Source of the DNA: Owenia fusiformis
Taxonomy: Eukaryota; Annelida; Polychaeta; Sabellida; Oweniidae
Direction: 5' to 3'
Assembly: GCA_903813345.2 (NCBI GenBank)
Contig: CAIIXF020000002.1
Location: forward strand, 11,120,150-11,184,149
DNA length: 64,000 bases
The position numbers and the translations under genes were made by a program. Position 1 is the stretch's first letter; every line of letters starts with the position of its first letter. Below the pieces are notes generated by a model. The model saw nothing but the letters and a program-made list of their open reading frames with translations, searched no databases and had not been told where the DNA came from. Positions 12,241 to 64,000 of the stretch are shown here, piece by piece.

Positions 12241-12589
12241 ATTGACAATATCATTCCATGAACTGCTTATTTATGCCAATTTATATCATTGGTTATTAAT
12301 GTATAAATTTTTACCAGAGACATTTTTTGTCTCTGTCTTTATGAATGTTGACCCAAGCTGCCCATTGGGGGTAGTAATGGGTGACACTCAGATATAATGT
12401 ATACTGTGTCTCATAAGTCGGCACCGGCTGCTGATGTTACAATATGTTGTTTTTATTATGTATTTTATATGTATATTGTAATATCAGTGACACAAAAATA
12501 AACTATTTTAAACTAAAAAACTAAACTATTTTAGCTTTTTCAACAAGTAACAATGGTTCAAACTATTTGAAGTTTCACCTCAATGATTT

Positions 12590-13565: not shown

Positions 13566-13579
13566 CGCACTGGTAAATA

Positions 13580-13915
13580 AACAAAATGTTTTTACCAAAA
13601 AGCTTCCAAATAAAATGTTTTCGCGCAAAAACCTTTTATTTTTTTTCGAGGATTTTTGGCCAAAATCGCTTTGTTTCGAGGCTTTTTGCGTTAAAAACGT
13701 TTAATTTCGAGGCTTTTTGGCAACAAACGCTTTATTTTGAGGTTTTTTGTATGAAACTTTGATTTCGAGGCTTTTAGGCCAAAAACGCTCTGTTTCGAGG
13801 CTTTTTGCGTGTAAACGTTTTATTTCGATGACTTTTGGCCAAAACGCTTTGTGGCGAGGCTTTTATAGCGTTGAAAACATTTTATTTCGAGGCTTTTTGG
13901 CAAAAAAACGCTCGT
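13580..13915. repeat. Minisatellite of about 32-bp units in alternating forms
   Basis: Units read TTTCGAGGCTTTTTGGCCAA, then AAACGCT, alternating with TTTCGAGGCTTTTTGCGTTA, then AAACGTT, giving a higher-order period near 64 bp. About nine diverged units are visible. The array directly follows the G/T-rich repeat block. Function unknown. Confidence 0.75.
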
Positions 13916-14974
13916 CAGAATTGATCAGGCCAATTTTTCTAAGATATGTTATCATATCTGAACTAAATTTATGGCTGAATTTGATCGAATGCGCCTACGA
14001 TCGGATAAAATTTGAAGAAGGATATATACCATGGTATTTAGCCAAACTTAGTCTGTTCTTTTGATTTGAAAAGAAGTTAATGATAGAAAACCACTGAAAC
14101 ACTGACTTATTTAGTCAGTTATTGGCAAACTTTGCAACAAATAATTCAAATTTTAGTGTCATGGTCCAGTGATTTTTGCCAATCAAACACTGAAATCAGT
14201 ACATAGAGGCTTCGTCGGCTCTTTGGAGGTTTAGTTGTTTAGATCACAATTAATGTCGTCATTTAAATGTGAAAATCTTAAATTCACAATACAAATATTT
14301 GGCCAAAATCCAAACCACCCCAATGTTAGTTAACTGCCCATAAAATGCTTAATTACCAATAGATCATTCTTAAACTGCACAAAAAATCTCGAAATACTCC
14401 ATTCTTTCATATGGTGGTATATTGGGTTATGTACCGAAAATCCTCTTGTTTTTCATAATTATTCCGAATATTCTAATGTTTCCCCATTGGATTGTATTAG
14501 AGCATTTGTCTGTGGAATTAACCCTAATTCAGATCGGATGCGGTAAAACCGAACGTTCCGGGTATTACGTTCGCTCTTGTATAGATTTTTTCCTATCATT
14601 GTTTAATTAAAGTCACGTGACTCGAGAATTGCAATCTATCGTTATGTTTCATTTCAGCATTTCCTTATGCACAAATATTTCGTTGCTATGGGTACTATAC
14701 TATTTGTAAAATATATTTCTTTTTTCAAACTACAGACAATTTCCTTGAAATATACGAATTATATAAGAAAGCAAATAATAAATTCTTGATTACAAAATAT
14801 TTCTAGTCCTTACAAACATGAAATTATGGGTCCGATTTGAGGATCAATATGCACATTTGCTAGACCACATATATAATATGCATTTGTAATATCGACATTT
14901 TTATTTAAGAATGTAACAAATACATTCGTATGGGAAACAATATTACTTACAAATAATGAAGCAGTTTTGGTCCT
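13916..14974. other. No gene seen
   Basis: AT-rich intergenic sequence between the sulfotransferase and receptor genes. Only short composition-driven ORFs. I found no exon-like segment with splice signals or protein similarity. Confidence 0.5.
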
Positions 14975-31000: not shown

Positions 31001-34000
31001 AGAAAAAACTGACAAAAGAGATACAGGTCTATAATTCGTAAAGACATTTCTATTACCCTTCTTAAATAAAGGTATAACTTTTGCAAGCTTAAGAAGGTCA
31101 GGAAAACAGCCATCAGTTAAAGATTTGTTGTAAATAAATAATAATGGATTAATGATTTCATCTTTACTTCTCTTGATTACAATAGGTTTTATCTCATCAA
31201 TTGAGGCCGAGGAATCTTTTAAATTTGACATCTCTTGAAGAAGTTCATCTTGATTAATGTTTGAAAAGGTAAAATTGTTGTTATTTCTAAGTTGTTGATT
31301 CATATATTCAGACCAAAATTTCTTACTTGGTAAAATTTTATCATTAAGTTTCCTCCCTACATTTGAAAAGAAATCATTAAACATATTAGCAACCTCCTTT
31401 GGATCATGGATAATTTGTCCATCTAGGTCAAAATCTAATTGGGGCTTGGTGTTTGTTCCATTCTTTTTCAGTATTTCATTGATAACATTCCAAGTACTTT
31501 TGATATTACCATTAGTAGCTTGGAGTTTTTCCCTATAAAATGACCTCTCAGATGTTCTCAATATTGATCTTAATTTAGCTTTAAAGTCCTTGTATTTTTT
31601 CAAGTTTAAAAGAGTAGGTGATTTAAGATATTTGTAATACAACTTATTCTTTGTCTTGGCAGATGTTATTATACCTAATGTTAACCATGGTCGGCTATTA
31701 TCATTAAAATATTTTACTTTTTTCTTAACAATAGGGAATGATTCATTGTATGCATTATAAATGTCATCATAAAATATAGAATATGCTGAATTTACATCCG
31801 TGGAAGTATAAAGTTTTGACCAATCATGGTTATGCAATTTTTGCTTGAATTTCTCAGTATTAATATTATTATAAATTCTATATGAAATCTCTTTTTGAGT
31901 ATTTTTATTTATATATGCACGTGTTAGGAGAAAAACAGGAAAATGATCAGAAATGTCTGTCAGGATAACATCACTGTGGATAACATTATTTAAATTTGAG
32001 AAAATGTTGTCAATTAAAGTGGCTGAATGTGCTGTGACTCTAGTGGGCCTATAAATTAATGGTTGATGATTAAATGACTGCATAATATTAAGAAATTCTC
32101 CAGTGTTTTGATGGGAATCACATTTAAATAAGTCAATATTAAAATCTCCTGTCAAAACTGAGTGCTTATTTTCAGAAGAAACTTTGGTCATAAATAAATT
32201 CAGGTGGTCATTAAATTCTCCTATATTGACATTTGGAGGCTTATATAAAGTAGTAACAATTATGTTCTTTGTGTTTGAATTAATAATCTCAATTGAAACT
32301 GATTCACAGTGTTCATCACCAAAAGAAAGATCTGTTCGTAATTTATAATTGATACTTTTAGCCACGAAAATAGCCACACCACCACCATCTTTATTTACCC
32401 GTGATGAAAACTCGGCTGTGTAATTAGGAAAAAGTGTTTCATAACGTTTTTCAGTATTTAAATTTAGCCAAGTTTCTGAGAAAGCAAATATTTGAATAGG
32501 GTTCTTCTTGAATTGTTCTAGAAATAATTTGAGATCAGTTTCCTTACTAGGAAGGCTCTGGGTATTAAAGTGTATTAAAGATAAATCATGATCTTTACTT
32601 GATTCCATAAGAGATGTTAGCTCATTAAGGGTCCTAAATTTACATTTAGACTTTGATGTCTTAGTTCTGTCATTTATAATATTACTAACATCATCTTGAT
32701 CATTCAATCTTTCTTCATATGGGTTAAATAATTTGTGTTCAAAGTTAAGAAGTCGGTCACAACTTGGTATTGATTCTAAAAATTCAATATCATCAATGAC
32801 ATTGAAAAATGGGAGAAGTGACATCCCAGCATTGTCCTCAAAATCATGCAGATCAGCCATCTGGTAAAAGTAATACTATGAAATATACCGACATTACCCA
32901 TGCTCCAACCAAACCACCATTGTGCTCAAAATTTAACCATTTGTTCATGGTGTGTCACCAATCAACAGAAAAAGAAGTAGTGCTCCTGCACTTAATCATG
33001 GTATTACTAGTGAAATCTGAGATAAGGAATCCAAGGAGTTGTTAATAAAGAAATGATATGTAATTTAGTAGTTCTCAAATAAAAACCCTCTCTCATAAGA
33101 AATGGTAATCGACAGTTGTAAAAACCATTATTTCTCGTTTGTATGTTTTTAACAGGTGTTTTTACAAACTATCAATTGCAAAAATAAAACATTGATTAAT
33201 TCAAAAGAGGGCTGCATTGAAAACAGTATTCATAATTGATACTGAGTATAAGTAAGTTTAATTTTCACAAGATCATATGAAATTGATCTGGCACTGACAA
33301 AATTAAAATGACAAGAAGCAAGTAGTCAATTGCTGTATTGAAGTGTTGATAAACACAGTCAATAGATGGCAGTATTGAAAACAGCAATCATAATTGTTAC
33401 TAGTTGAAAGTAAATATCGTCAGTTGTAAAAACCATTATTTCTCATTTATATGTTTTTAACAGTTGTTTTTACAAACTATCAATTGCAAAAATAAAACAT
33501 TGAATAATATTCAAAAGAGGGCTGCATTGATAACAGTATTCATAGTTGATACTGAGTATAAGTAAGTTTAATTATTACAAGATCATATGAAATTGATCTG
33601 GCACTGACAAAATTAAAAATGCAAACAGTCAATTGCTGTTTTGAAGTGTTAATTGACACAGTCAATAGAGGGCAGTATTGAAAACAGCAGTCATAATTGT
33701 TACTGGTTGAAAGTAAATATTTTGTTATACTGCTATCAATGCATGCTGGCTTTTACCTCAACTTGAAATATCAACTGAAAACATGCTGAATAGTATAATA
33801 CCCTTTATTCAAAACCCACACATTTCTGTACAGGTGAAATACTATCAGGTTACTTGAAACTCTTGGCTTTCCAGTCCTTTGAAATAGACACGATTCAATC
33901 CCTTGTGAGATTTCCACTCAGGTTTGGACCTAGTAAAAACTAAACAATGTTTTGGAATGTTCCACTCATCTAAAGAATTTTATTACCCATGTATACCCAT

Positions 34001-40968: not shown

Positions 40969-41261
40969 TTTTTCAATTTAAGGCACAAAATAAAGGTCGA
41001 TTATGGCACTATTCAAAGAGCTTTGTTCTGCACATTTTTTGCCATAACAGCGGGTAAACCTGAAAATATGTTTCATTTGTAATAAACAAGAGTAATATTA
41101 CAAAATTGAATGATTTGTACAAAAATGAATTGAAAGGTCTCTGTTGTATTGTATTGTATATCTTTATTGCCCATAATAAAATGGAGATACAATTTATATG
41201 TACAGTGATGTAAAATAAAAGTACAAAATTATGACAAAATTATATACGTGTTAGACGTATA

Positions 41262-42314
41262 CCAGGTCGTTCAATAAGTTCACGGAAAAACGCTCTCATT
41301 TCAAGGATTTTTGATATTTTCTCATGAAATTTTTACACAATGTATGAAAAATACTTTCTGATTGATTCTGAAAATATCAGCATCTCTTATTTGATTGGTC
41401 AAAAATAAGGGTTACTATGGTAACTTGACTTTTGGGTAGGCGGGGCACTTTTTACGTCACATTATTCATTAGAAAAACAACAGAATAGTAGGCAATTTAT
41501 GAGTATATCACATGAATTTCTTCTCCGCTTTCTACTTGCACATGATATTACTTAATGTAATGATAGTAAAAACTATTGTCCCATAAGGTTTTAGAAATAT
41601 TCTCCCTCATGTTTAATGCACAGTAGGTTGCATTCAAGCCATTGACGAGACAATGCTCTGAAGCCATCTGGAAAACTTGTTTAAGGGCAATCTGGACTGC
41701 AGTCGAAAGTAGTTTCATTGTTTCATAAAGTGCACCTCTTAGCTGATCCTAGTGGAAACAGCAAAATCAAAGTTGTCTCATCTGGAGAGTTTGTAACTTG
41801 GGGCAGCTTTGCCATCTATTTTGCCATGGTTTGGTGATGGTTTCCTGCACAATATTAGCAGTGTGATGGGCTGGATAATTCTGATGGAAAAATTTAGAGT
41901 TTGGCTGAATGGAAGTTTTAATCAACTTACCATACCATTACTTTGTTGATTTTCTGGTCCACTGGTACAGCATTGACTAGCACAATTTCAGAAATGTTCG
42001 TGAAAACAATGAACATCAATTTTCCCTCAAAGATTTGTAATTTGAATAAGAACAAATAAAAAAATAAGGATCCTTCCTTTGCACATATTGATAGATTTCT
42101 GTAATGGTAAATTGTGTGACGTAAAAAGTGCCCCGCCTACCCAAAAGTCAAGTTACCATAGTAACCCTTATTTTTGACCAATCTAATTAGAGATGCTGAG
42201 ATTTTAAGAATCAATCAGAAAGTATTTTTTAAACATTGTGTGAAAATTTTATGGAAAAATATCAAGAATCTTTGACATGAGAGCATTTTTCCGTGAACTT
42301 ATTGAACGACCTGG
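41262..42314 (-). mobile_element. Tc1/mariner relic with inverted repeats of over 200 bp
   Basis: Ends CCAGGTCGTTCAATAAGTTC on both sides with TA duplications (41260-41261 and 42315-42316). The arms also share GGTTACTATGGTAACTTGAC and GGCGGGGCACTTTTTACGTC. On the minus strand between about 42000 and 41600, broken frames still show mariner-like phrases (HTANIVQETIT-like, LKQVFQMASEHCLVNGL-like). Many stops, so inactive. Confidence 0.8.
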
Positions 42315-44262: not shown

Positions 44263-44753
44263 AAGGAAAAAAGCTCCAACAATGTCTTCGGAAAACGCGA
44301 TTGAAAGGGGACAATCATCATATAGGGGTTAATGATAACACCTGTTCACGTACAAGTATTCTTTAAAAACGTGTAGCTTAACCTCCCGAGCTAATAACTC
44401 GGGTAAAACATAACACCATTCAACCCTATTCAGAATATTGACATATTCGCATGCCATTTGAATGGAGGAGCGAATATCAATTTCATCTATTTGAAGTTGT
44501 TGATCTTCATGTTTACACGAAGTTGTTACATTCATACTGTATTTATCTTAGAGTCGTGACATGAAAAAAGTACAAATAAAACCATGGATTAAAATAGACC
44601 ATGATATAACTGGTCAATACAGTGTATTATCACTTTGCCGGGCCAGTTCTACGGGTTTTAGTGCTAGTTTAGAAGGCATTCATTTTACTGTATCGACCTG
44701 AGCAATATGTTACGTCATAGTGGCGGTCAATACTGCCGGTCAAGAGTGCAATA

Positions 44754-44775
44754 GACATATTCGCAATAAGAGTTC
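44754..44775. repeat. Left terminal inverted repeat, copy 1
   Basis: GACATATTCGCAATAAGAGT and onward pairs with the right end at 52963-52983, about 16 of 21 aligned positions plus one gap. Preceded by TA at 44752-44753. Confidence 0.75.
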
Positions 44776-44882
44776 AGGTGGTAATTTACATAAATATTTC
44801 CCATGATGCATCGCTTCGGAAGGGACAAATTTTCATTGGCCCGCCGAACTCGCTTACTCTGAACGAAACGTCTAGAGATTGC

Positions 44883-44896
44883 AAAGTCAAAGGTCA
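44883..44896 (+). promoter_or_regulatory. DR1-type nuclear-receptor-like site upstream of the YqaJ gene, copy 1
   Basis: AAAGTCAAAGGTCA, two half-sites one base apart, lies about 50 bp upstream of the nuclease ATG and about 130 bp inside the element's left end. Such a site could bind HNF4/RXR-type receptors. It may be chance; the same site is in copy 2 at 53118-53131. Confidence 0.3.
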
Positions 44897-44943
44897 CGAT
44901 CTGCTAATTTCATTGGTCGATGATTACATCATATAGCATCAAA

Positions 44944-46883
44944 ATGGCGGACGATTACTCGAACAAAATTTCAACAAATTCTGATAAAACTAGCGTCAAT
45001 CTTGACAAAATGACAGTTTCTCAGCTTAAGGACTACCTTAAACAAAGAGAGGTTTCAACATCTGACTATCGGAGAGATATGCTCGTCGGACTTGCGAAAT
45101 TGGCGCATGAAATCCAACTTGAAAAAAATCCGGAAATAAATGAGGAAACATTTTCAACTGAATCGAGGAGAACAGTTAATATTGATGGAAAAACAATCAC
45201 TTTTGAAGATCCCGAACAAATAAAAAATTGGAATATTGATCTAAAAACCGTACCGGACATTGAACTTTCCCACTGTTTCCACTATCTTCATACTGTTTGT
45301 GGATGGAATGCTGGAAGATTGGCAAATTATACCAAAGACAATGGGTTCAAACTTTTCAAAGATCGACATATTTCAGCAGTTAAAGTCAAATCATTGAGTC
45401 ATGAGCATATGTATGTGCAGGCCGAATGTGTTAGACAAACATCACTAAGTGAAAATCCGTACAAATTATTTGTACTTTTAGAGAAGTCGGGCATAATCAA
45501 GTCAGCTGGGTGTCAGTGTGTTGCGTAAGTTAGATTATCAAAAATATATCATTAAATATTGCTAAAATTAAAATAGTCTCTTCTGTTTTGCAAAAATAAA
45601 TTTTTGAACAGTATACAGATCAATTTATGAATAACTTGAAAATGATCATTTCTTGTTTCCTTCAGATGGAGGATAAGTGATATTTGTTTTGATATCAACA
45701 AATAGACCGGTTAAATGTAATTTCTAACAAATCAAATATTTGAAGCAAATAATTTTGTACTTTCAGTGGAGATGGAAGCTGTAAACATGTTGCGGCCCTG
45801 CTGTTTTCCTTGCATGATTTCATCTCTCGAAATGAGGACCGTAATACTGAAGTCTGCACTGATGTGCCATGTTCCTGGACAGTGCCGAGGAAACGCAGCA
45901 AACCAGAGTATTGGGACGATATCGATATTTGTGCTGATGTAGAAAAACCATCTAAAAAACCAACATGTGACAGTTATACACCATTTCCACCCCTCAGCCC
46001 TGCCGCGAAAGATGCAATTGAAAAAGATTTCATTGCTTTGATTAAAAACACTGACTCATGTATTGCCATAGATTATAATGATAGTGAGAGTGACTCTGAC
46101 TGTCAGGCTCCCAAAAGTTTGTTCGAAATTGTGGAGTGTATTGATAAACCACGCAGTGCAGATGCTATTATGGAGGCATTCCATGGAGAGACAACAAATG
46201 ATGTTATCAACGCTGTTTATAATCTTACAATCTCTCAGTCAGAGTCAGATGACTGGTATAAGTATCGCCATGGAAGGATAACCGCCTCAATAGCCAAAAA
46301 AGCAGCTTGTGCAACAGAGCAAACACTCTCAAACCCTGATAATTATATCGCCAATGGAATCATGAACAATAACAATACTGACTTCACTGTGGATAGCATT
46401 GAGTTTGGAAAATTGCACGAGGAAACTGCCCGCCATTTATATGTCCAAAGTGAGAAAAAAAAACACACCCGATTTTCTGTGGATACTGCTGGACTAGTTA
46501 TCAACAGTCAGTACCCTCACCTCGGGGCTAGCCCTGATGGGATTGTGAAATGTGATTGTTGTGGAAAGGGAGCACTTGAGATTAAATGTTCATATAGATT
46601 TGCCAATGTAAAACTTCAAAATGCACTCTCATCATCTACTTGTAAATATCATTGCACATTTAAGGACAACAAACTTAATTTGAAAAAATCTTCAGCATGG
46701 TACTATCAAATCCAGATGCAGATGTTAATAATGGACGTTGAATGGTGTGATTTTGTTCTGTATTCCACCAAGGGAATTTTAGTGTCAAAAATTCCAAGAG
46801 ACTTTGGCTTCTGTGAGGAATTGCTTGAAAAACTCAATGTGTTTTATAAAAGGTGCATTATTCCAAGGCTTATTGCTCAATAA
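44944..46883 (+). CDS. SAP-SWIM-YqaJ nuclease encoded by transposon copy 1
   Basis: Exons 44944-45524 and 45767-46883 (GTAAGT donor, TTTCAG acceptor) give 565 residues. The start at 44944 has a strong AAAATGG context; an in-frame ATG at 44920 would add eight residues. Domains: a SAP-like DNA-binding helix pair at about 23-54 (LKDYLKQREVS...), a SWIM zinc finger CxC-x6-CxH (C190, C192, C199, H201) split by the intron, an acidic linker, and a YqaJ/lambda-exonuclease-type nuclease at about 350-540. Candidate catalytic residues are E412 or E413, D451 (ASPDG), E465 and K467 (LEIKC), and Q508. Such PD-(D/E)xK enzymes degrade or process DNA ends. A role in end processing during transposition is inferred. 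Confidence 0.85.
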
Positions 46884-46971
46884 CAAGGTTTTAATGTATT
46901 CAGTGATAGTGTAATGAGATATGAAAAACTGATGTACTCTCTGACTGTACTTTGAATGAAACACAAATGAA

Positions 46972-46977
46972 AATAAA
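46972..46977 (+). terminator. Polyadenylation signal of the YqaJ gene, copy 1
   Basis: AATAAA about 90 nt after the stop codon, followed by more overlapping AATAAA-like motifs. The same signal is at 55207-55212 in copy 2. Confidence 0.5.
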
Positions 46978-47147
46978 TAAATAAAATTGACTCATCTCAA
47001 TATAAGTTATGTTTCAAAATGAGGTCTCTCTGGACTAACAGCTGACAGTCTCAGTATGAAATAAATATCTTCTTGATCAAAGTTATATACATGCCTGGTC
47101 AGATTTATGACATATTGGTATATCATGAAAAATCCCTGTTGACTGGA

Positions 47148-47470
47148 AATTCCAACAATCATGGTCATGGACCAAGAGCGTCAAAAAATATTGAAGCTTG
47201 GATATTTCACCAAAGTTATTTTCATTATCTTTAAAGAAACCCCCTCAATGAATATTATTTCAGCTGAAATTCCTTCAGTTAAAATCTTGAAATGGGTGAG
47301 TATCTTAAAAATTTATAATTAGAACTGGACTCCTCTTTTGAACCTTCAAACTAAATTTAACCTTCTAAATGCTGAAAGTCCATTGTCCATACATTTAAGG
47401 AAAATAGGTTTGACAAAGAAGATATCTCAGAAAATGTTCCCCTCTTCAGGCCTTGTTGCCACTTTAATTT
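47148..47470. repeat. MITE-related segment inside the transposon, copy 1
   Basis: Matches the stand-alone MITE at 8222-8554 (inverted) over most of its length. It ends CCTTGTTGCCACTTTAA, comparable to the MITE terminus and TTAA site. The equivalent in copy 2 is about 55383-55705. The TTGCCACTTTAA motif then recurs through the array to its right. Confidence 0.6.
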
Positions 47471-49800
47471 AGAAATCAGTAGGCTTCCTGAGAAATACAC
47501 CTGTACCAGTACACAGTTGGACAAACAACGTTTTAATGTCAATAAAGTTTATTTAAAAATACTTACTAATAATAATACTCCAATATTGTAAAATATACAA
47601 TACTACCATTTTCACTACAAAATAATAATAACTAACTAAAAACTACAGTTTAATATGTACATACAGCCATGAAGATGGTCTCTAGCTATTCACAATCATC
47701 TAACAAAAGGCTGAATTGTGAAAAGTAACCCCATAAATATGCTTAGTTGCTATAATATAATATATATATGATACTAATAAGATACAAAATTGCCACTTAA
47801 AATACCATGACTAGGAGATTTCAGAAAAAGTAATCCCATCAAATGATTCACATTATAAAGATAGAAAGTACATAAGAACTACCTCTTTAGTATCCCATGA
47901 CTGCAAATTATCCTAGTATTGATTGTATGTAAAAACTAGTAAGAATATAATATGAATTATAAAAATACAATATTGCCACTTTAAATCCATTGCTTTGACT
48001 GAGCAAATTGCAAATTATAATACAGATTGAAAGTAAGATTGACTAGTGATATCACGAAGAAATAGTATTCTACATCTGTTTGATTGCCAAAACACTAATA
48101 CTGATTGCCAGTTTAAATTCCATTGATAAGAAATCCTACCATTGTTAAATAGGAAAATAAAACATGGTATAGAAAGAGTAAGATTCACTTTAATTTAATG
48201 AATTATACTATGAAATTCTACATATTCTTCAGTGTTGCTAAATAGTGAAAGTGATAATGATGCAATTTCTCAAAGGCAGTCAGCAAAATATAATACTAAT
48301 ATTTCATGACTTTTGACGTAAAATCCTTCATTAGAAAACTTCAACTTTTGAAAAATGCAATATTGCCACTTTAAATCTATGACTAGTGGACTACCTAAAT
48401 ACTAGTACTACTCTAGTATATACAAGATACATTATTGAAGGCCTCTAATTAAAAAGAAGGTCAGGTTATATATTTAAATAAATAATATAAAAACATGTAT
48501 GCATTGCTACTTTAAATGATGTGGCAAGAAATACATCCAATCATACTACTCAGTCACAATCTTAAAAAATAGGGTAAATTTTGGAATGTAATATTTACAA
48601 AAATGTTATATTGCCACTTTAACTATTACTATGAGATTCCAGCAGTTGAATAATACAAAATACTTTACTTTTAATCATACACTCAGTCACAATCTTAAAA
48701 ATAGGGTAAATTTTGGAATGTAGTATTTACAAAGATGTTATATTGCCACTTTAAGTTAATGGCATGACTATGAGATTGCAGCAGTTGAATAATACAAAAA
48801 TACTTGACTTTCAATCTCAAACACTAAGTCACAATCTGACAATATGCTATATTGTCAAATAAAATATTTACAAAAATGTTATATTGCCACTTTTAGTTGA
48901 CATGACTATGAGATTGCAGCAGTTGAATAATACAAAAATACTTGACTTTCAATCTCAAACACTAAGTCACAATCTGACAATATGCTATATTGTCAAATAA
49001 AATATTTAAAAAAATGTTATATTGCCACTTTTAGTTAATGGCATGACTATGAGATTGCAGCAGTTGAATAATACAAAAATACTTGACTTTCAATCTCAAA
49101 CACTAAGTCACAATCTGACAATATGCTATATTGTCAAATAAAATATTTACAAAAATGTTATATTGCCACTTTTAGTTAATGGCATGACTATGAGATTGCA
49201 GCAGTTGAATAATACAAAAATACTTGACTTTCAATCTCAAACACTAAGTCACAATCTGACAATATGCTATATTGTCAAATAAAATATTTACAAAAATGTT
49301 ATATTGCCACTTTTAGTTAATGGCATGACTATGAGATTGCAGCAGTTGAATAATACAAAAATACTTGACTTTTAAACACTCAGTCACAATCTGACAATAT
49401 ATTGTCAAATATTGTATTTATAAAGATGTTATATTGCCACTTTAAGTTAATGTCTTGATTCCAGCAATTGAATTATACAAAAAAAACTTTTAATGTCATC
49501 ATTCAGTCACAACCTGATTATATGCTGGAAAATATATATATTGGGGAATGTTATATTTATAATTAAATATGGGATATTGGAACTTTAATTTAACATCATG
49601 ACTATGAGATTTAAATACTATAGTAAAACAACAGCATGAGACATTTTGTCTTAGCTAGAAATGTTCTTGAATGATAGGCTACATTTCAAGAGACTAGTAA
49701 TATTGATAAAGATAACTTTGGCAATAACATTATCTGAGAACATTATTTTAATATAAAGAACATTTGTCGCCACTTAAATATCATCAACTATTTGTGATGA
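47471..49800. repeat. Array of TTGCCACTTTA-containing units; 141-bp core at 48560-49460, copy 1
   Basis: TTGCCAC occurs at 48611, 48743, 48884, 49022, 49163, 49304 and 49434, spacing 130-141 bp. The units are nearly identical (ACTATGAGATTGCAGCAGTT, ACAAAAATACTTGACTTT, CTAAGTCACAATCTGACAAT). Older, degraded units with spacings of about 107-256 bp extend to 47791 on the left and about 49770 on the right. Non-coding, between the 3' ends of two convergent genes. In this copy one unit has TTGACATG where copy 2 has TTAATGGCATG. Confidence 0.85.
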
Positions 49801-49921
49801 AGTCCATGATAACTTATGATAATATAAAATGATATGTACATGTAGCTTGACATTTCTTTGCTGCAATAAGTAAACTGCAGCAGTTACTGTCAATAAGTTT
49901 GAGATTCATTGTACAAAATGT

Positions 49922-52552
49922 TCACTTTTTTACCAATGGTGGAGATAGGTTGCATAAAAATGCACCTATGCCAAGCATTTGATTCATTAATGGCTTAAGA
50001 GTTAGTGGAATTATGTTTCCAATCAAACGGAACCACTTAAGTCGTCCTATTGCCCGCTCTACATGGATCCTGAGTTTTGCTATGGCCCGGGTTTTCTTAA
50101 TTTCACGTGTGTTTAGTCGTTTACCCTTCCCATGTTTGGCCTTATGAGTGAATGGTGGCATGTTAAGAGTGGCTTTCTTTGGCAGAAGAAGATCCTGGAT
50201 AGTAAAACCTCGATCAGCCATTATGCTGTCTCCTTCTTCAATGTTATCTATGAATCCTGAATCCTTCGTGATATATCTGTCAGAAGCATTGCCTCCATAT
50301 AGTTTAGATATAAAGTTGAATGACCCCCAGGGGCTTACAGACAGCAAAACCTTGGCAGTGTTATGTGACTTATAAGTGCTATATGTGCAACTTTGGGCTG
50401 TTGGATTTGATGGCTTCTGAACAAAGAATTCACTACAGTCTATTATTGCTCTGGTGTTTGGATAGCTTCTCCTGAAACCTGTGGGTAAGTTTCTTTTAGT
50501 TGTTTTCTTTGAGGCCCACTTAATAAATGGAGAAAACACATTGTACATGACATTTATCCATGTTGAGAACACAGAGGAAGTTACGGTTGTAGAAACTCCA
50601 AATAAATCTGATGTAAACCACCCAAGAAGTCCAAGTCTAAATCTAACAAGGGTCATGATAAACTCCTCATAGTGTGTCATGATTCTCCTTCGGCCTTTCT
50701 TCTGCCCTCTGTTTGGCTTTAGTAATGGCTTTGTATTTTTTCCACCTTTCCAATAAATAAGGTTGGAAAAATTGGAGGTGGATTTGGCAATTAGTTGAAA
50801 TAGTCCATCAAGCATAGTCCGGGAACAAATACCAGTATACTGTTTAATCGATTTGTCATTCTCCAGAACTTTCTCCATGAACAAATCCCTCCGAAGTTTT
50901 TCTTTATTTCCAAAGCGCTTATGGGATTCCATCATTTCATCAAACTGCAAACCGGTGCAGTCTGTTTGCGTTTCAATAGAGATGCCTTTGACAAACTTGA
51001 AGGGAACATCATAGTCATGTTCAGGATACGGGGTGTCTCTGATCTCAAATGACTCTCCACATTGGAATGGTTGATTTGTTGACTTCGGATATATTGTTAC
51101 ATTTGCCCCTACTGGTAGAAGATCCTGAAATTAAATAAGATTATATTAATTTAAGCAGACAAACCTGAAACACTGTTGATAAACTGCTAATACAGCATGG
51201 CATATCACCGATAAAAATGGAAATAAAGCTAGGGAAAGTTAAAATATGCAAATTAATTACTAGTATAGTATCTATATTAACCATTTTGAATAAAAATTCA
51301 TTCCTATGATAGTTTTATGATAATATAAATTTTTTATAACTCAGAGAGTATGGCAAAATTGTCCTGCAAATGCGAACTTTTGTTGTAAAATGTGTCTTTT
51401 AAATCCCCAGAGATGATTTGTTACATTTAGTATTAACCCGGGACTTTGATATATTCCATATATTTATTTTATATACTTTGTTCCGTGTAAAACATTTCGT
51501 CTAGTGTTGCTGGGGGTAAAATGTCTTAATGTTTTGATTGTTTTGCTTATTAGGCCATATTCAAATCCGCGAAATTTAATAGGCGCAAAATTGCAATTTT
51601 GAAAGATCGCGAAAATTTATCAGATTTATGCTGAGATTACTAGTAATCCAAGGATCATACTAATTCAATGATTTTTGGATTAATTCTTGGATTAATCCCA
51701 CTATGCATCATTACAATGACAAAATTTATCCGGATCGGATCGCGGATTGTACAAATTCACTGCCCCAGGAGTAGCAGGGGCATAGCCAGCAAATGTCATT
51801 AGGTGCCATTTTGGGGTTGGCATTTTAAATGATGAGAGCAACAAAAAGTTGGTCAGGAGGTTCCCCTTTTTAAATTTTCAAAAACATTTACATCAAGGTG
51901 CATTACAACATTAAAAGTTAATGATTTTTCAATAAATTTTACACGAAAATTGACTTTTCCTTTTTGAGGTAATACTGATACCCAAGTGATGGGATTGCAC
52001 CCCCCCCCCCCGGCTATACCCATGTGTAATTCTACTTACACCATCAATGATATTGGTTGAAACACTCTGACTGCTAGATTCAAGGGAGTCAGAAGTTTCC
52101 ACACCACTAGTCCCAAGATCAATTAGGTCTGTCGATGGTTTGAGGCCAGGCTGACTTGTTCTCCTAGTACTATACAGTTCTCCGAGACTTTTTCTCTTGA
52201 CACTTTTACGCGGTAAATTATTTTCAATATTGGCCCTAAGCCTATTATCAGGTTCGCACTTATCACTATTCACATATCCATTATAATCGAATAATGTTGG
52301 GTATGGATTCTCACTTGTTGGTCTAGAGTCAATAAAATGCCGAGAACATAGAACAGCATGTGGGGCAGGTGTCCATGGTTTCCTATTATCTTTAGGGTCC
52401 ACCCTTTTAGTCTTTCGTATCCAAATATCTCTATCATCATTTCGGGGGAATTCAAAAAATGAAATATTTTTCATCCATGGATGTTTCTCCAAGTTTTTTA
52501 ATTTCCTACTATCACTGGTGCATTTCCCCGCTGCACAGTGCTTCACTGGCAT
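49922..52552 (-). CDS. THAP-DDE transposase encoded by transposon copy 1
   Basis: Exons 52552-52040 (phase 0, GTAAGT donor) and 51124-49922 (TTTCAG acceptor) give 571 residues. Residues 1-90 form a THAP zinc finger: C6, C11, W44, C69, H72, with FEFP and YPTLF boxes. A linker of about 100 residues follows, then a helix-rich middle, and a DDE_4 (IS5/Harbinger-like) catalytic core. The catalytic triad is D400 (IIDCSEF), D475 (MADRGF) and E527 (HVERAIGRLK). The protein would bind the element ends through THAP and cut and join DNA in the nucleus. THAP and DDE are on one spliced protein here, unlike classical Harbinger elements that use a separate Myb-like protein. Confidence 0.9.
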
Positions 52553-52694
52553 TGTTCTGATCTTCCATCAGCCCTAAAGTATAGTTTTTTGATCGGGTCT
52601 ATTCAATAATTAGAAAAATCTTCGAAGATTCAAAAATTACAATATTTATTTATTTCGATCTTCAATGGCGTCTGGGCAATTTCCGGGAAACTAG

Positions 52695-52702
52695 TGACGT
52701 CA
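52695..52702. promoter_or_regulatory. Perfect CRE palindrome upstream of the transposase gene, copy 1
   Basis: TGACGTCA lies about 145 bp upstream of the transposase ATG, next to a TTCCGGGAA palindrome. A CREB/ATF-type site is a plausible promoter element. The equivalent in copy 2 is 60932-60939. Confidence 0.4.
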
Positions 52703-52962
52703 CTGGAATTGGGTGGCATTTTCAACCACAAATTTCTTCGGAGTAGGGGAATATATTTCAAAACGCATTGTTGTATATCTTAATTACGTACATATCTTTG
52801 GTTTGTGCAAATGCAACTCTACATAAATGTTTTAAAAAGCCGCTCTGCGGCATTGAAAATCACAACCCTGTGTAATCCAATGGGGAAAAACCCGGATGTA
52901 GACGAAGTTGTACCCCTGCGTGAGAGCTCTCCTGTCGGGAGGTAGCTACACTGAACTAAGTT

Positions 52963-52983
52963 GAATTTTATCGCGTATAACTC
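52963..52983. repeat. Right terminal inverted repeat, copy 1
   Basis: Reads inward as GAGTTATACGCGATAAAATT and is followed by TA at 52984-52985, one T, and the TA (52987-52988) that starts copy 2. Confidence 0.75.
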
Positions 52984-52988
52984 TATTA

Positions 52989-53010
52989 GACATATTCGCA
53001 ATAAGAGTTC
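52989..53010. repeat. Left terminal inverted repeat, copy 2
   Basis: Identical to 44754-44775. It lies five bases (TATTA) after the end of copy 1. Confidence 0.75.
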
Positions 53011-53178
53011 AGGTGGTAATTTACATAAATATTTCCCATGATGCATCGCTTCGGAAGGGACAAATTTTCATTGGCCCGCCGAACTCGCTTACTCTGAACG
53101 AAACGTCTAGAGATTGCAAAGTCAAAGGTCACGATCTGCTAATTTCATTGGTCGATGATTACATCATATAGCATCAAA

Positions 53179-55118
53179 ATGGCGGACGATTACTCGAACA
53201 AAATTTCAACAAATTCTGATAAAACTAGCGTCAATCTTGACAAAATGACAGTTTCTCAGCTTAAGGACTACCTTAAACAAAGAGAGGTTTCAACATCTGA
53301 CTATCGGAGAGATATGCTCGTCGGACTTGCGAAATTGGCGCATGAAATCCAACTTGAAAAAAATCCGGAAATAAATGAGGAAACATTTTCAACTGAATCG
53401 AGGAGAACAGTTAATATTGATGGAAAAACAATCACTTTTGAAGATCCCGAACAAATAAAAAATTGGAATATTGATCTAAAAACCGTACCGGACATTGAAC
53501 TTTCCCACTGTTTCCACTATCTTCATACTGTTTGTGGATGGAATGCTGGAAGATTGGCAAATTATACCAAAGACAATGGGTTCAAACTTTTCAAAGATCG
53601 ACATATTTCAGCAGTTAAAGTCAAATCATTGAGTCATGAGCATATGTATGTGCAGGCCGAATGTGTTAGACAAACATCACTAAGTGAAAATCCGTACAAA
53701 TTATTTGTACTTTTAGAGAAGTCGGGCATAATCAAGTCAGCTGGGTGTCAGTGTGTTGCGTAAGTTAGATTATCAAAAATATATCATTAAATATTGCTAA
53801 AATTAAAATAGTCTCTTCTGTTTTGCAAAAATAAATTTTTGAACAGTATACAGATCAATTTATGAATAACTTGAAAATGATCATTTCTTGTTTCCTTCAG
53901 ATGGAGGATAAGTGATATTTGTTTTGATATCAACAAATAGACCGGTTAAATGTAATTTCTAACAAATCAAATATTTGAAGCAAATAATTTTGTACTTTCA
54001 GTGGAGATGGAAGCTGTAAACATGTTGCGGCCCTGCTGTTTTCCTTGCATGATTTCATCTCTCGAAATGAGGACCGTAATACTGAAGTCTGCACTGATGT
54101 GCCATGTTCCTGGACAGTGCCGAGGAAACGCAGCAAACCAGAGTATTGGGACGATATCGATATTTGTGCTGATGTAGAAAAACCATCTAAAAAACCAACA
54201 TGTGACAGTTATACACCATTTCCACCCCTCAGCCCTGCCGCGAAAGATGCAATTGAAAAAGATTTCATTGCTTTGATTAAAAACACTGACTCATGTATTG
54301 CCATAGATTATAATGATAGTGAGAGTGACTCTGACTGTCAGGCTCCCAAAAGTTTGTTCGAAATTGTGGAGTGTATTGATAAACCACGCAGTGCAGATGC
54401 TATTATGGAGGCATTCCATGGAGAGACAACAAATGATGTTATCAACGCTGTTTATAATCTTACAATCTCTCAGTCAGAGTCAGATGACTGGTATAAGTAT
54501 CGCCATGGAAGGATAACCGCCTCAATAGCCAAAAAAGCAGCTTGTGCAACAGAGCAAACACTCTCAAACCCTGATAATTATATCGCCAATGGAATCATGA
54601 ACAATAACAATACTGACTTCACTGTGGATAGCATTGAGTTTGGAAAATTGCACGAGGAAACTGCCCGCCATTTATATGTCCAAAGTGAGAAAAAAAAACA
54701 CACCCGATTTTCTGTGGATACTGCTGGACTAGTTATCAACAGTCAGTACCCTCACCTCGGGGCTAGCCCTGATGGGATTGTGAAATGTGATTGTTGTGGA
54801 AAGGGAGCACTTGAGATTAAATGTTCATATAGATTTGCCAATGTAAAACTTCAAAATGCACTCTCATCATCTACTTGTAAATATCATTGCACATTTAAGG
54901 ACAACAAACTTAATTTGAAAAAATCTTCAGCATGGTACTATCAAATCCAGATGCAGATGTTAATAATGGACGTTGAATGGTGTGATTTTGTTCTGTATTC
55001 CACCAAGGGAATTTTAGTGTCAAAAATTCCAAGAGACTTTGGCTTCTGTGAGGAATTGCTTGAAAAACTCAATGTGTTTTATAAAAGGTGCATTATTCCA
55101 AGGCTTATTGCTCAATAA
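53179..55118 (+). CDS. SAP-SWIM-YqaJ nuclease encoded by transposon copy 2
   Basis: Exons 53179-53759 and 54002-55118, 565 residues, identical in protein sequence to the copy 1 product. SAP-like, split SWIM finger and YqaJ nuclease are all intact. Its upstream region (left end to ATG) is also unchanged, so both copies should have the same promoter activity. The promoter of this copy begins right after the transposase promoter of copy 1, placing two divergent transcription starts within about 600 bp. Confidence 0.85.
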
Positions 55119-55705
55119 CAAGGTTTTAATGTATTCAGTGATAGTGTAATGAGATATGAAAAACTGATGTACTCTCTGACTGTACTTTGAATGAAACACA
55201 AATGAAAATAAATAAATAAAATTGACTCATCTCAATATAAGTTATGTTTCAAAATGAGGTCTCTCTGGACTAACAGCTGACAGTCTCAGTATGAAATAAA
55301 TATCTTCTTGATCAAAGTTATATACATGCCTGGTCAGATTTATGACATATTGGTATATCATGAAAAATCCCTGTTGACTGGAAATTCCAACAATCATGGT
55401 CATGGACCAAGAGCGTCAAAAAATATTGAAGCTTGGATATTTCACCAAAGTTATTTTCATTATCTTTAAAGAAACCCCCTCAATGAATATTATTTCAGCT
55501 GAAATTCCTTCAGTTAAAATCTTGAAATGGGTGAGTATCTTAAAAATTTATAATTAGAACTGGACTCCTCTTTTGAACCTTCAAACTAAATTTAACCTTC
55601 TAAATGCTGAAAGTCCATTGTCCATACATTTAAGGAAAATAGGTTTGACAAAGAAGATATCTCAGAAAATGTTCCCCTCTTCAGGCCTTGTTGCCACTTT
55701 AATTT

Positions 55706-58038
55706 AGAAATCAGTAGGCTTCCTGAGAAATACACCTGTACCAGTACACAGTTGGACAAACAACGTTTTAATGTCAATAAAGTTTATTTAAAAATACTTA
55801 CTAATAATAATACTCCAATATTGTAAAATATACAATACTACCATTTTCACTACAAAATAATAATAACTAACTAAAAACTACAGTTTAATATGTACATACA
55901 GCCATGAAGATGGTCTCTAGCTATTCACAATCATCTAACAAAAGGCTGAATTGTGAAAAGTAACCCCATAAATATGCTTAGTTGCTATAATATAATATAT
56001 ATATGATACTAATAAGATACAAAATTGCCACTTAAAATACCATGACTAGGAGATTTCAGAAAAAGTAATCCCATCAAATGATTCACATTATAAAGATAGA
56101 AAGTACATAAGAACTACCTCTTTAGTATCCCATGACTGCAAATTATCCTAGTATTGATTGTATGTAAAAACTAGTAAGAATATAATATGAATTATAAAAA
56201 TACAATATTGCCACTTTAAATCCATTGCTTTGACTGAGCAAATTGCAAATTATAATACAGATTGAAAGTAAGATTGACTAGTGATATCACGAAGAAATAG
56301 TATTCTACATCTGTTTGATTGCCAAAACACTAATACTGATTGCCAGTTTAAATTCCATTGATAAGAAATCCTACCATTGTTAAATAGGAAAATAAAACAT
56401 GGTATAGAAAGAGTAAGATTCACTTTAATTTAATGAATTATACTATGAAATTCTACATATTCTTCAGTGTTGCTAAATAGTGAAAGTGATAATGATGCAA
56501 TTTCTCAAAGGCAGTCAGCAAAATATAATACTAATATTTCATGACTTTTGACGTAAAATCCTTCATTAGAAAACTTCAACTTTTGAAAAATGCAATATTG
56601 CCACTTTAAATCTATGACTAGTGGACTACCTAAATACTAGTACTACTCTAGTATATACAAGATACATTATTGAAGGCCTCTAATTAAAAAGAAGGTCAGG
56701 TTATATATTTAAATAAATAATATAAAAACATGTATGCATTGCTACTTTAAATGATGTGGCAAGAAATACATCCAATCATACTACTCAGTCACAATCTTAA
56801 AAAATAGGGTAAATTTTGGAATGTAATATTTACAAAAATGTTATATTGCCACTTTAACTATTACTATGAGATTCCAGCAGTTGAATAATACAAAATACTT
56901 TACTTTTAATCATACACTCAGTCACAATCTTAAAAATAGGGTAAATTTTGGAATGTAGTATTTACAAAGATGTTATATTGCCACTTTAAGTTAATGGCAT
57001 GACTATGAGATTGCAGCAGTTGAATAATACAAAAATACTTGACTTTCAATCTCAAACACTAAGTCACAATCTGACAATATGCTATATTGTCAAATAAAAT
57101 ATTTACAAAAATGTTATATTGCCACTTTTAGTTAATGGCATGACTATGAGATTGCAGCAGTTGAATAATACAAAAATACTTGACTTTCAATCTCAAACAC
57201 TAAGTCACAATCTGACAATATGCTATATTGTCAAATAAAATATTTAAAAAAATGTTATATTGCCACTTTTAGTTAATGGCATGACTATGAGATTGCAGCA
57301 GTTGAATAATACAAAAATACTTGACTTTCAATCTCAAACACTAAGTCACAATCTGACAATATGCTATATTGTCAAATAAAATATTTACAAAAATGTTATA
57401 TTGCCACTTTTAGTTAATGGCATGACTATGAGATTGCAGCAGTTGAATAATACAAAAATACTTGACTTTCAATCTCAAACACTAAGTCACAATCTGACAA
57501 TATGCTATATTGTCAAATAAAATATTTACAAAAATGTTATATTGCCACTTTTAGTTAATGGCATGACTATGAGATTGCAGCAGTTGAATAATACAAAAAT
57601 ACTTGACTTTTAAACACTCAGTCACAATCTGACAATATATTGTCAAATATTGTATTTATAAAGATGTTATATTGCCACTTTAAGTTAATGTCTTGATTCC
57701 AGCAATTGAATTATACAAAAAAAACTTTTAATGTCATCATTCAGTCACAACCTGATTATATGCTGGAAAATATATATATTGGGGAATGTTATATTTATAA
57801 TTAAATATGGGATATTGGAACTTTAATTTAACATCATGACTATGAGATTTAAATACTATAGTAAAACAACAGCATGAGACATTTTGTCTTAGCTAGAAAT
57901 GTTCTTGAATGATAGGCTACATTTCAAGAGACTAGTAATATTGATAAAGATAACTTTGGCAATAACATTATCTGAGAACATTATTTTAATATAAAGAACA
58001 TTTGTCGCCACTTAAATATCATCAACTATTTGTGATGA
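55706..58038. repeat. Array of TTGCCACTTTA-containing units, copy 2
   Basis: Counterpart of 47471-49800; the near-identical 141-bp core is at about 56795-57700. All core units here keep the AATGGCATG form, so the short form in copy 1 is probably the derived one. Non-coding. Confidence 0.85.
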
Positions 58039-58159
58039 AGTCCATGATAACTTATGATAATATAAAATGATATGTACATGTAGCTTGACATTTCTTTGCT
58101 GCAATAAGTAAACTGCAGCAGTTACTGTCAATAAGTTTGAGATTCATTGTACAAAATGT

Positions 58160-60789
58160 TCACTTTTTTACCAATGGTGGAGATAGGTTGCATAAAAATG
58201 CACCTATGCCAAGCATTTGATTCATTAATGGCTTAAGAGTTAGTGGAATTATGTTTCCAATCAAACGGAACCACTTAAGTCGTCCTATTGCCCGCTCTAC
58301 ATGGATCCTGAGTTTTGCTATGGCCCGGGTTTTCTTAATTTCACGTGTGTTTAGTCGTTTACCCTTCCCATGTTTGGCCTTATGAGTGAATGGTGGCATG
58401 TTAAGAGTGGCTTTCTTTGGCAGAAGAAGATCCTGGATAGTAAAACCTCGATCAGCCATTATGCTGTCTCCTTCTTCAATGTTATCTATGAATCCTGAAT
58501 CCTTCGTGATATATCTGTCAGAAGCATTGCCTCCATATAGTTTAGATATAAAGTTGAATGACCCCCAGGGGCTTACAGACAGCAAAACCTTGGCAGTGTT
58601 ATGTGACTTATAAGTGCTATATGTGCAACTTTGGGCTGTTGGATTTGATGGCTTCTGAACAAAGAATTCACTACAGTCTATTATTGCTCTGGTGTTTGGA
58701 TAGCTTCTCCTGAAACCTGTGGGTAAGTTTCTTTTAGTTGTTTTCTTTGAGGCCCACTTAATAAATGGAGAAAACACATTGTACATGACATTTATCCATG
58801 TTGAGAACACAGAGGAAGTTACGGTTGTAGAAACTCCAAATAAATCTGATGTAAACCACCCAAGAAGTCCAAGTCTAAATCTAACAAGGGTCATGATAAA
58901 CTCCTCATAGTGTGTCATGATTCTCCTTCGGCCTTTCTTCTGCCCTCTGTTTGGCTTTAGTAATGGCTTTGTATTTTTTCCACCTTTCCAATAAATAAGG
59001 TTGGAAAAATTGGAGGTGGATTTGGCAATTAGTTGAAATAGTCCATCAAGCATAGTCCGGGAACAAATACCAGTATACTGTTTAATCGATTTGTCATTCT
59101 CCAGAACTTTCTCCATGAACAAATCCCTCCGAAGTTTTTCTTTATTTCCAAAGCGCTTATGGGATTCCATCATTTCATCAAACTGCAAACCGGTGCAGTC
59201 TGTTTGCGTTTCAATAGAGATGCCTTTGACAAACTTGAAGGGAACATCATAGTCATGTTCAGGATACGGGGTGTCTCTGATCTCAAATGACTCTCCACAT
59301 TGGAATGGTTGATTTGTTGACTTCGGATATATTGTTACATTTGCCCCTACTGGTAGAAGATCCTGAAATTAAATACGATTATATTAATTTAAGCAGACAA
59401 ACCTGAAACACTGTTGATAAACTGCTAATACAGCATGGCATATCACCGATAAAAATGGAAATAAAGCTAGGGAAAGTTAAAATATGCAAATTAATTACTA
59501 GTATAGTATCTATATTAACCATTTTGAATAAAAATTCATTCCTATGATAGTTTTATGATAATATAAATTTTTTATAACTCAGAGAGTATGGCAAAATTGT
59601 CCTGCAAATGCGAACTTTTGTTGTAAAATGTGTCTTTTAAATCCCCAGAGATGATTTGTTACATTTAGTATTAACCCGGGACTTTGATATATTCCATATA
59701 TTTATTTTATATACTTTGTTCCGTGTAAAACATTTCGTCTAGTGTTGCTGGGGGTAAAATGTCTTAATGTTTTGATTGTTTTGCTTATTAGGCCATATTC
59801 AAATCCGCGAAATTTAATAGGCGCAAAATTGCAATTTTGAAAGATCGCGAAAATTTATCAGATTTATGCTGAGATTACTAGTAATCCAAGGATCATACTA
59901 ATTCAATGATTTTTGGATTAATTCTTCGATTAATCCCACTATGCATCATTACAATGACAAAATTTATCCGGATCGGATCGCGGATTGTACAAATTCACTG
60001 CCCCAGGAGTAGCAGGGGCATAGCCAGCAAATGTCATTAGGTGCCATTTTGGGGTTGGCATTTTAAATGATGAGAGCAACAAAAAGTTGGTCAGGAGGTT
60101 CCCCTTTTTAAATTTTCAAAAACATTTACATCAAGGTGCATTACAACATTAAAAGTTAATGATTTTTCAATAAATTTTACACGAAAATTGACTTTTCCTT
60201 TTTGAGGTAATACTGATACCCAAGTGATGGGATTGCACCCCCCCCCCCGGCTATACCCATGTGTAATTCTACTTACACCATCAATGATATTGGTTGAAAC
60301 ACTCTGACTGCTAGATTCAAGGGAGTCAGAAGTTTCCACACCACTAGTCCCAAGATCAATTAGGTCTGTCGATGGTTTGAGGCCAGGCTGACTTGTTCTC
60401 CTAGTACTATACAGTTCTCCGAGACTTTTTCTCTTGACACTTTTACGCGGTAAATTATTTTCAATATTGGCCCTAAGCCTATTATCAGGTTCGCACTTAT
60501 CACTATTCACATATCCATTATAATCGAATAATGTTGGGTATGGATTCTCACTTGTTGGTCTAGAGTCAATAAAATGCCGAGAACATAGAACAGCATGTGG
60601 GGCAGGTGTCCATGGTTTCCTATTATCTTTAGGGTCCACCCTTTTAGTCTTTCGTATCCAAATATCTCTATCATCATTTCGGGGGAATTCAAAAAATGAA
60701 ATATTTTTCATCCATGGATGTTTCTCCAAGTTTTTTAATTTCCTACTATCACTGGTGCATTTCCCCGCTGCACAGTGCTTCACTGGCAT
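58160..60789 (-). CDS. THAP-DDE transposase encoded by transposon copy 2
   Basis: Exons 60789-60277 and 59362-58160, 571 residues, identical to the copy 1 product, with THAP finger and DDE triad intact. The poly-C length difference that changes unspliced read-through lies in the intron (around 60238-60248), so it does not alter the spliced protein. Without splicing the THAP frame would continue only a few dozen codons before a stop. Splicing is thus needed to make the full enzyme. Confidence 0.9.
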
Positions 60790-61199
60790 TGTTCTGATCT
60801 TCCATCAGCCCTAAAGTATAGTTTTTTGATCGGGTCTATTCAATAATTAGAAAAATCTTCGAAGATTCAAAAATTACAATATTTATTTATTTCGATCTTC
60901 AATGGCGTCTGGGCAATTTCCGGGAAACTAGTGACGTCACTGGAATTGGGTGGCATTTTCAACCACAAATTTCTTCGGAGTAGGGGAATATATTTCAAAA
61001 CGCATTGTTGTATATCTTAATTACGTACATATCTTTGGTTTGTGCAAATGCAACTCTACATAAATGTTTTAAAAAGCCGCTCTGCGGCATTGAAAATCAC
61101 AACCCTGTGTAATCCAATGGGGAAAAACCCGGATGTAGACGAAGTTGTACCCCTGCGTGAGAGCTCTCCTGTCGGGAGGTAGCTACACTGAACTAAGTT

Positions 61200-61220
61200 G
61201 AATTTTATCGCGTATAACTC
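61200..61220. repeat. Right terminal inverted repeat, copy 2
   Basis: Same as 52963-52983; followed by TA (61221-61222) and then host sequence TTCTCGACCGGC. Confidence 0.75.
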
Positions 61221-61320
61221 TATTCTCGACCGGCAATTTTCCCCGGGAAATTAGATATCGTTCAGTGCGTAAGATTTTCTTGCTGTTTCAGTCCTGGTTA
61301 TTAACGGTGGTAATAATACT

Positions 61321-61379
61321 AATAACGTCATTTCTGCGGGCAATATAGTGCACTATATTGCCCTTCAAATGACGTTATT
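61321..61379. repeat. Palindrome of about 59 bp
   Basis: AATAACGTCATTT and GGGCAATATAGTGC are mirrored around the centre GTGCAC with only a small mismatch (CTGC against TTC). About 100 bp right of the transposon pair. Confidence 0.85.
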
Positions 61380-61426
61380 GTACTATTGATCTCAAAGAAA
61401 ATGTTATTTACGTTACTTGGCTCCCA

Positions 61427-62939: not shown

Positions 62940-64000
62940 TATCGAAATTTCAATTTTTTGGTGCATTTGGCTCAGGGGTAACCTTATCTTACCTCAATAA
63001 TTTTTAAGATAGTCAATGTATGCATCTCATATGAGCTCAGAATGGTGCTTCTAGTCTTGTTTTGTCATATTATTGCTAATTAGATGTACAAAAAAGATTG
63101 GAATCAAAAAAAATTCAAATTTTCATTTTCGATTCTGAATGGCCAGGGGTAACCATATTGTACCTTTATAATTTTCAAAATATGTTATATATCCATCTCA
63201 AATGAGCTCAAAATGGTGCATCTAGTCTTGTTTTGTCATAATATTGCTAATTGGAATTGAAGATTGGAATTTTTTTTAATCTAATTTTCATTTTCGCTTC
63301 TGAAGGGCCAGGGGTAACCATATTGTACCTTAATAATTTTTAAAATATGTTATATATCCATCTCAAATGAGCTCAATATGGTGCATCTAGTCTTTTTTAA
63401 TCATATTAACCCTAATAAGATGTAGAAAAATGATTTATAATTCTTAAAACTCTAAATTTTCATTTAAGCTTCAGATGGTCCAGGGGTAACCATATTTTAG
63501 CATAATAATTTTCAAGATATGTAATATATGCATCTCAAATGAGCTCAAAATGGTGCATATAGTCTTGTTTTATCATACCCCAAATAAGATGTAGAAAAAT
63601 TATTGGACATTTCTTAAAAATCTGAATTTTCTATTTGACCATATTTTTAACATAATAATTACATATTATTACATATGCATCTAAAATGAGCTCAAAGTGG
63701 TTCATATACCAGAAGTCTTGTTATCATATTTCCCCTAATAATATATAAAAACATAATTTGACATTTTTAAATATCTAATATCTAAAAATCTAAATTTTAT
63801 ATTTGAGCTTTTGACAGCCCAGGGGTAACCATACTTAAGATAATAATTTTCAATGTATGTTACATATATGCATCTCAAATGAGCTTGAAATTGTGTATAT
63901 AATCTTGTTTTGTCATATCATTTCTAAGGAGATGGAAAAAATGATCAGATTTTGATTTAGCTTTTGACTGGTTATAGGTGGCCTCATTTTACCATAATAA
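62940..64000. repeat. Satellite with monomers of about 170 bp, continuing past the window
   Basis: CAGGGGTAACC recurs at 62973, 63144, 63309, 63481 and about 63820, with one deleted copy between. Monomers share GCATCTCAAATGAGCTCAAA, ATGGTGCAT and TAGTCTTGTTTTGTCAT. Divergence rises toward the window end. Direction and centromeric or other role unknown. Confidence 0.85.

Follow-up and report, generated by a model that had tools for sequence, protein, structure and literature searches.

A head-to-tail pair of ISL2EU-type transposons at a single target site in Owenia fusiformis

The window analyzed here is a 64,000-nucleotide stretch of the Owenia fusiformis genome (contig CAIIXF020000002.1), and it carries two near-identical ISL2EU-type elements of ~8.23 kb each, arranged head to tail (Table 1). 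The whole arrangement reads GCA-AT-[el1]-ATT-[el2]-AT-TCTCG, where el1 and el2 denote the two copies, and with AT taken as the duplication the element limits are AGACATATT...ATAACTCT. Each copy contains two convergent genes of two exons each, with a YqaJ nuclease gene on the plus strand and a transposase gene on the minus strand. With exon joints predicted from GTAAGT...CAG sites, these genes would encode proteins of 565 amino acids (YqaJ) and 571 amino acids (transposase), both identical between el1 and el2. The YqaJ domain was also recovered from the spliced 565-residue protein (PF09588, E=3.5e-14), while the transposase exons join into one spliced frame that includes, in addition to its THAP and DDE domains, an HTH domain (PF13613, E=3.5e-7 in exon-by-exon Pfam searches). 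By eye, a CxC...CxH pattern was noted around the YqaJ splice joint, which we took to be a SWIM zinc finger; Pfam gave no such match up to E=1, and the assignment was dropped. A 141-bp tandem array sits between the convergent genes, and a third genomic copy (el3, described below) has a 135-nt gap against that stretch.

Table 1. Features of the transposon pair and its surroundings (window coordinates)
Feature	Position	Strand	Remarks
Host repeat, left part	44625..44752	+	ends GCA-AT; 88-94% identical to at least 39 other places
Left target-site duplication AT	44751..44752	+	empty copies of host repeat read GCAATTCTCG or variants
Element copy 1 (el1)	44753..52984	+	8232 bp; AGACATATTCGC...ATAACTCT; imperfect terminal inverted repeats
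el1 YqaJ gene exon 1, SAP-like N-terminus	44944..45524	+	open frame, GTAAGT donor; SAP match under Pfam cut-off
el1 YqaJ gene exon 2, nuclease domain	45767..46883	+	PF09588, E=2.2e-14
el1 141-bp tandem array, non-coding	48590..49452	+	6.3 units
el1 transposase exon 2, DDE domain	49922..51124	-	PF13359, E=1.7e-39
el1 transposase exon 1, THAP domain	52040..52552	-	PF05485, E=4.7e-10
ATT joint, el1/el2	52985..52987	+	sole abnormal junction of the pair
Element copy 2 (el2)	52988..61221	+	8234 bp
el2 YqaJ gene exon 1	53179..53759	+	protein same as in el1
el2 YqaJ gene exon 2	54002..55118	+	protein same as in el1
el2 141-bp tandem array	56825..57690	+	
el2 transposase exon 2	58160..59362	-	protein same as in el1
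el2 transposase exon 1	60277..60789	-	protein same as in el1
Right target-site duplication AT	61222..61223	+	from empty-site comparison and route enumeration
Host repeat, right part	61224..61390	+	second half folds back; main matches 87-97% identical, at least 40 other places

Several other repeats were observed elsewhere in the window. Specifically, two 308-bp units at 33108-33720 are 91% alike and lie directly head to tail as an ordinary short tandem duplication, and an inverted repeat of ~200 bp (93%) links 41260-41461 with 42316-42115. Strong strand asymmetry (GC skew 0.24, AT skew -0.26) marks 12001-14000, inside which a T/G-rich 58-bp array occupies 13639-13912. A 165-bp tandem array of 3.6 copies is found at 62973-63577, 1.7 kb to the right of the transposon pair.

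With respect to the two copies themselves, a global alignment confirmed the orientation and near identity described in an earlier note on this DNA, which had counted about four differences. The actual tally is close to that figure: three substitutions (window 48900, 51138 and 51689), a 3-nt indel at 48898 within the 141-bp array, and a poly-C tract at 52000 that differs by 1 nt. The indel adjoins the substitution at 48900, so that both may perhaps reflect one event. These five differences span 3.1 kb, and none of them falls within a predicted coding exon.

The next copy of the element, el3, lies on the same chromosome at a distance of 3.9 Mb (C2:7246270-7254501, in L001) and has canonical flanks (GGAA-AT-[el]-AT-TGG). 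In the three-way comparison, el3 has a substitution at 70 columns in which el1 and el2 agree, as compared to only three in which el1 and el2 differ; with el3 as the outgroup, el1 carries the derived state at one of these three columns and el2 at the other two. Beyond these three copies, similarity falls off. A search with the left end (40 of 322 candidates scored) placed the other 37 of the 40 listed places at 82-89% identity, and a transposase search with 94 matches found el1, el2 and el3 at 100%, two open copies at 73% and the rest lower. Broken transposase pieces were also seen at C8:26625001-26626291 (60-94% by piece). Since the closest other copy is 70 substitutions from both members, the pair is local and recent, in keeping with the earlier view of a recent event that left intact genes. 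As judged from sequence, the most likely origin is that the second copy of the pair derives from the first, or that both derive from one copy absent from the assembly.

The number of targets used by the pair could be read from its surroundings. A genome search with both flanks revealed that the pair is embedded in one copy of a high-copy interspersed repeat. The repeat counts in Table 1 are lower bounds, as 40 of 1210 candidates were scored for the left flank and 40 of 1514 for the right (flank from 61221); among the left-flank matches listed, most stop at window 44750-44752. The right half of the repeat also contains an inverted self-match at 61312-61387 (85% over 78 nt), with >1000 first-look candidates in the genome. 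For the empty site, we assembled 40 host-repeat loci, 20 from each flank list, and 35 of these could be paired across the site; the remaining five (L017, L031, L035, L037 and L038) were left out because their two sides were not pairable. The site letters in the aligned members are GCAATT in 15, GCATTT in nine, and GCTATT and GCAAAA in one each, and a further nine have a diverged form with AATATATTCTG at the site. Measured against a direct joining of the flanks without the element-adjacent TA, 23 of the 35 have 0 extra nt and seven, all of the diverged form, are 1 nt shorter. The other five are 8-12 nt longer, with the extra bases ~15 nt left of the site in four and just right of it in one (L022). 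In none of the 35 members does the site contain an extra TA or TATTA. Moreover, when the whole genome was searched with an exact pattern that tolerated 0-8 nt at this point, all 14 matching places (four of them also among the 35) had 0 nt there, and the control gave 0 matches.

The pre-insertion site was therefore most likely GCAATTCTCG, as far as paralogous copies can report it. The lack of an added TA or TATTA in these empty copies identifies the duplication as AT within a single A|AT|T target, and thus settles the target count at one. An insertion without duplication (Spy-like, AA|TT) was also considered, but was set aside, since an AT duplication within A|AT|T accounts for these letters equally and is what has been published for ISL2EU. 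The earlier note had instead described a TATTA spacer and a TA target duplication. Its letters are right in that TA adjoins all four element ends and TATTA lies between the elements; however, each TA is the T of the AT duplication followed by the terminal A of the element, mirrored on the right side, and the spacer is the 3-nt ATT. A TA at every end can mislead in just this way when the duplication is AT and the element begins with A and ends with T. Similarly, the product GCAATATTATTCTCG, obtained by deleting both elements and one TA for each, is arithmetically correct but is not the empty site.

The flanks of related elements point to the same duplication. We surveyed 44 relatives, of which 41 gave a left end, 40 a right end and 37 both; two pairs (L085/L086 and L088/L091) share the same flanks and are not independent in these counts. 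On the left, AAT was found in 38/41 and AAA in 3/41. On the right, ATT was found in 36/40, with ATA, CTT, AAT and CAT once each. The AAT/ATT combination predicted by a 2-bp AT duplication is present in 31 of the 37 two-ended relatives, which, together with the AT duplication of el3, contradicts a TA duplication. Within the pair, the left flank of el1 and the right flanks of both elements are canonical. Only the left flank of el2 departs, and the ATT seen there was found in none of the 41 other left ends. Among the two-ended relatives, a single short element (L076, G000:C7:30307860-30308920) is flanked by AAT on both sides; this could possibly represent a 3-bp target duplication or a point mutation. 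A proven 3-bp duplication it is not, as a genome search with its left flank recovered no place but its own and hence offered no empty site.

Taken together, these features support the earlier assignment to ISL2EU, a group within the PHIS (PIF/Harbinger-ISL2EU-Spy) superfamily. In the account given in PMC4482050, ISL2EU elements insert at A|AT|T with a duplication of AT, encode a transposase with DDE, HTH and THAP domains, and carry a YqaJ nuclease as second gene. All of these are found here: the AT duplication in the outer flanks, the empty sites, el3 and 31/37 relatives; the three transposase domains (PF13359, PF13613, PF05485); and the second gene (PF09588). Membership in Spy, described there as inserting within AAATTT without target duplication, is at odds with the 2-bp AT duplication, and PIF/Harbinger, with its TWA 3-bp duplication and Myb/SANT second gene, is at odds with both the outer AT duplication and the YqaJ gene. 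The present elements nonetheless differ from the published ISL2EU elements (mean ~4.8 kb, GG ends; PMC4482050) in their length of 8.2 kb, their internal 141-bp array and their head-to-tail pairing. Their ends read AGAC / AGAG, so the GG start of the terminal repeats, which is usual in ISL2EU though not defining, is replaced by AG.

Further dimers of the family were sought with genome pattern searches, a type of search that diverged ends escape, and none were found. Two of the dimer patterns returned only the pair at 44.7-61.3 kb and two returned nothing. A pattern for a 2-nt AT joint, with 3 mismatches allowed, gave three weak matches against one in the control, which we read as single left ends or chance. 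A candidate second pair at C10:14769572 / 14773637 was rejected, as the direct repeat includes the flanks. This repeat (L006 + L093, G000:C10, ~14768022-14775900) is a ~3.9 kb direct repeat with an offset of 4065 and 99.95% identity; it extends past a related non-autonomous element into the flanking DNA on its sides and does not stop at the element ends. A dimer of this kind is thus known here from a single case.

Building from the inferred empty site, we enumerated the routes that could lead to the pair, covering one-step tandem duplication after one insertion and every two-insertion combination in which the target duplications are perfect and 0-5 bp long. Tandem duplication yields the observed letters only after a 2-bp AT insertion, with [element]ATT (or its T-shifted equivalent) as the unit. 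For two insertions, the solutions are AT (2 bp) followed by ATT (3 bp) to its right, or ATT first and then AT into the intact AATT. Among all the combinations enumerated, none with two 2-bp duplications reproduces the structure. The spacer had been held in the earlier note to disfavor a tandem duplication; in fact, one insertion followed by duplication of [element+ATT] gives the exact sequence. The choice consequently narrows to a duplication in place or a double insertion in which one event had a 3-bp duplication.

Of these, we favor one canonical insertion followed by generation of the second copy in place from the first, probably with involvement of the transposase, and give this a probability of roughly one half. 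The locus has a single target site, an [element+ATT] repeat unit, closely related copies and one odd joint. A link to transposition is preferred because one breakpoint coincides with the left end and the other lies 3 nt beyond the right end, in contrast to the flank-carrying duplication on C10. As a possible course of events, an autonomous ISL2EU transposon would have inserted once, at A|AT|T in a copy of the interspersed repeat, with duplication of AT. The second copy would then have arisen in place with one new joint, fusing the right end and ATT (the existing right flank) to the left end. After replication, the element may have been cut out of one sister chromatid together with the adjoining 3 nt on its right, and this segment may have fused to the left end of the element on the other sister, either directly or via a circle recombining there. 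PIF/Harbinger excision normally takes the element plus one copy of the duplication (PMC2836001), and by analogy an ISL2EU element could plausibly leave its site with AT or ATT still attached.

A nearly equally good explanation is that both elements inserted at the same AATT. We regard this as a serious though less probable contender; with one 3-bp duplication, it produces the same letters as the in-place duplication. Either el2 came first and duplicated 3 bp (A|ATT|C), which is unusual, keeping AATT on its left for a canonical A|AT|T insertion of el1, or el1 inserted canonically and el2 followed beside it with a 3-bp ATT duplication; these are the only two-insertion solutions in the enumeration. 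A 2-bp insertion destroys AATT while a 3-bp insertion leaves it free, so a 3-bp duplication would itself explain the second insertion. Duplications of 3 bp are moreover the rule in PIF/Harbinger, in the same superfamily (PMC4482050), L076 could be such a case among the 37 two-ended relatives, and two insertions into one target have been described as a way in which transposable-element dimers arise (McGurk and Barbash 2018, via PMC7214746). Against this stand the flank survey, with its uniform lack of a left ATT and its prevalent AAT/ATT pairing, and the fact that L076, whose left flank matched itself alone, may reflect a point mutation.

An ordinary tandem duplication whose breakpoints happened to coincide with the element ends, with 1-nt (T) microhomology, also fits the sequence in our enumeration, and ordinary local duplications do occur, as illustrated by the C10 repeat and the 308-bp pair at 33108-33720. 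The C10 repeat, however, runs past the element ends, whereas here neither breakpoint is more than 3 nt from an element end, a coincidence rarely expected of random breaks; we therefore consider this route improbable. Slightly less probable still is an assembly artefact in which one genomic copy was doubled by the assembler: the copies differ at five places across 3.1 kb, and a falsely duplicated haplotype would presumably bring flanks along, while the repeat here ends at the element plus 3 nt. Least credible are the two insertions at TA sites 3 bp apart in GCAATATTATTCTCG that the earlier note preferred, which would account for the TA abutting all four ends but require a TATTA that is missing from all 35 aligned and all 14 pattern-matched empty sites, find no counterpart in the enumeration, and conflict with the published A|AT|T target (PMC4482050) and the relatives' flanks.

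The arrangement itself has precedents in other families. Tandem pairs of transposons, DNA transposons included, are reported in Drosophila, where double insertion, circles or concatemers, and recombination are debated as routes (McGurk and Barbash 2018, via PMC7214746, PMC12368964); those dimers belong to other families, whereas here the single target is resolved by paralogous empty sites. Clusters of Bari1 (Tc1/mariner) likewise consist of precise head-to-tail copies of a cut-and-paste element, with a circle proposed as intermediate (PMC8834629), but comprise ~80 and 6 copies, each without its first two nucleotides; the present locus has two copies, both of which retain their full ends and are joined through 3 nt. 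Coral CMITE arrays also place full-sized DNA transposon units in tandem, though these are piggyBac-related, non-autonomous and ascribed to replication slippage (PMC2872659). Our literature search found no report of a head-to-tail or dimeric Harbinger element, and none for ISL2EU appeared among the papers listed. The novelty is accordingly modest: a known arrangement, in a family for which no report was seen among those papers, with its target resolved.

The origin of head-to-tail transposon pairs is often ambiguous, and the value of this locus is that the number of targets can be read directly. Such pairs can also seed bigger arrays (PMC7214746). A more far-reaching, and in our estimation doubtful, possibility is that the ISL2EU transposase joins the element ends to each other with 3 nt of flank in between, either as a circle or as a sister-to-sister fusion. 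Several bacterial insertion sequences use a dimer route. If such a joint does form, a eukaryotic cut-and-paste element would be capable of multiplying in place by a dimer route, as these bacterial elements do.
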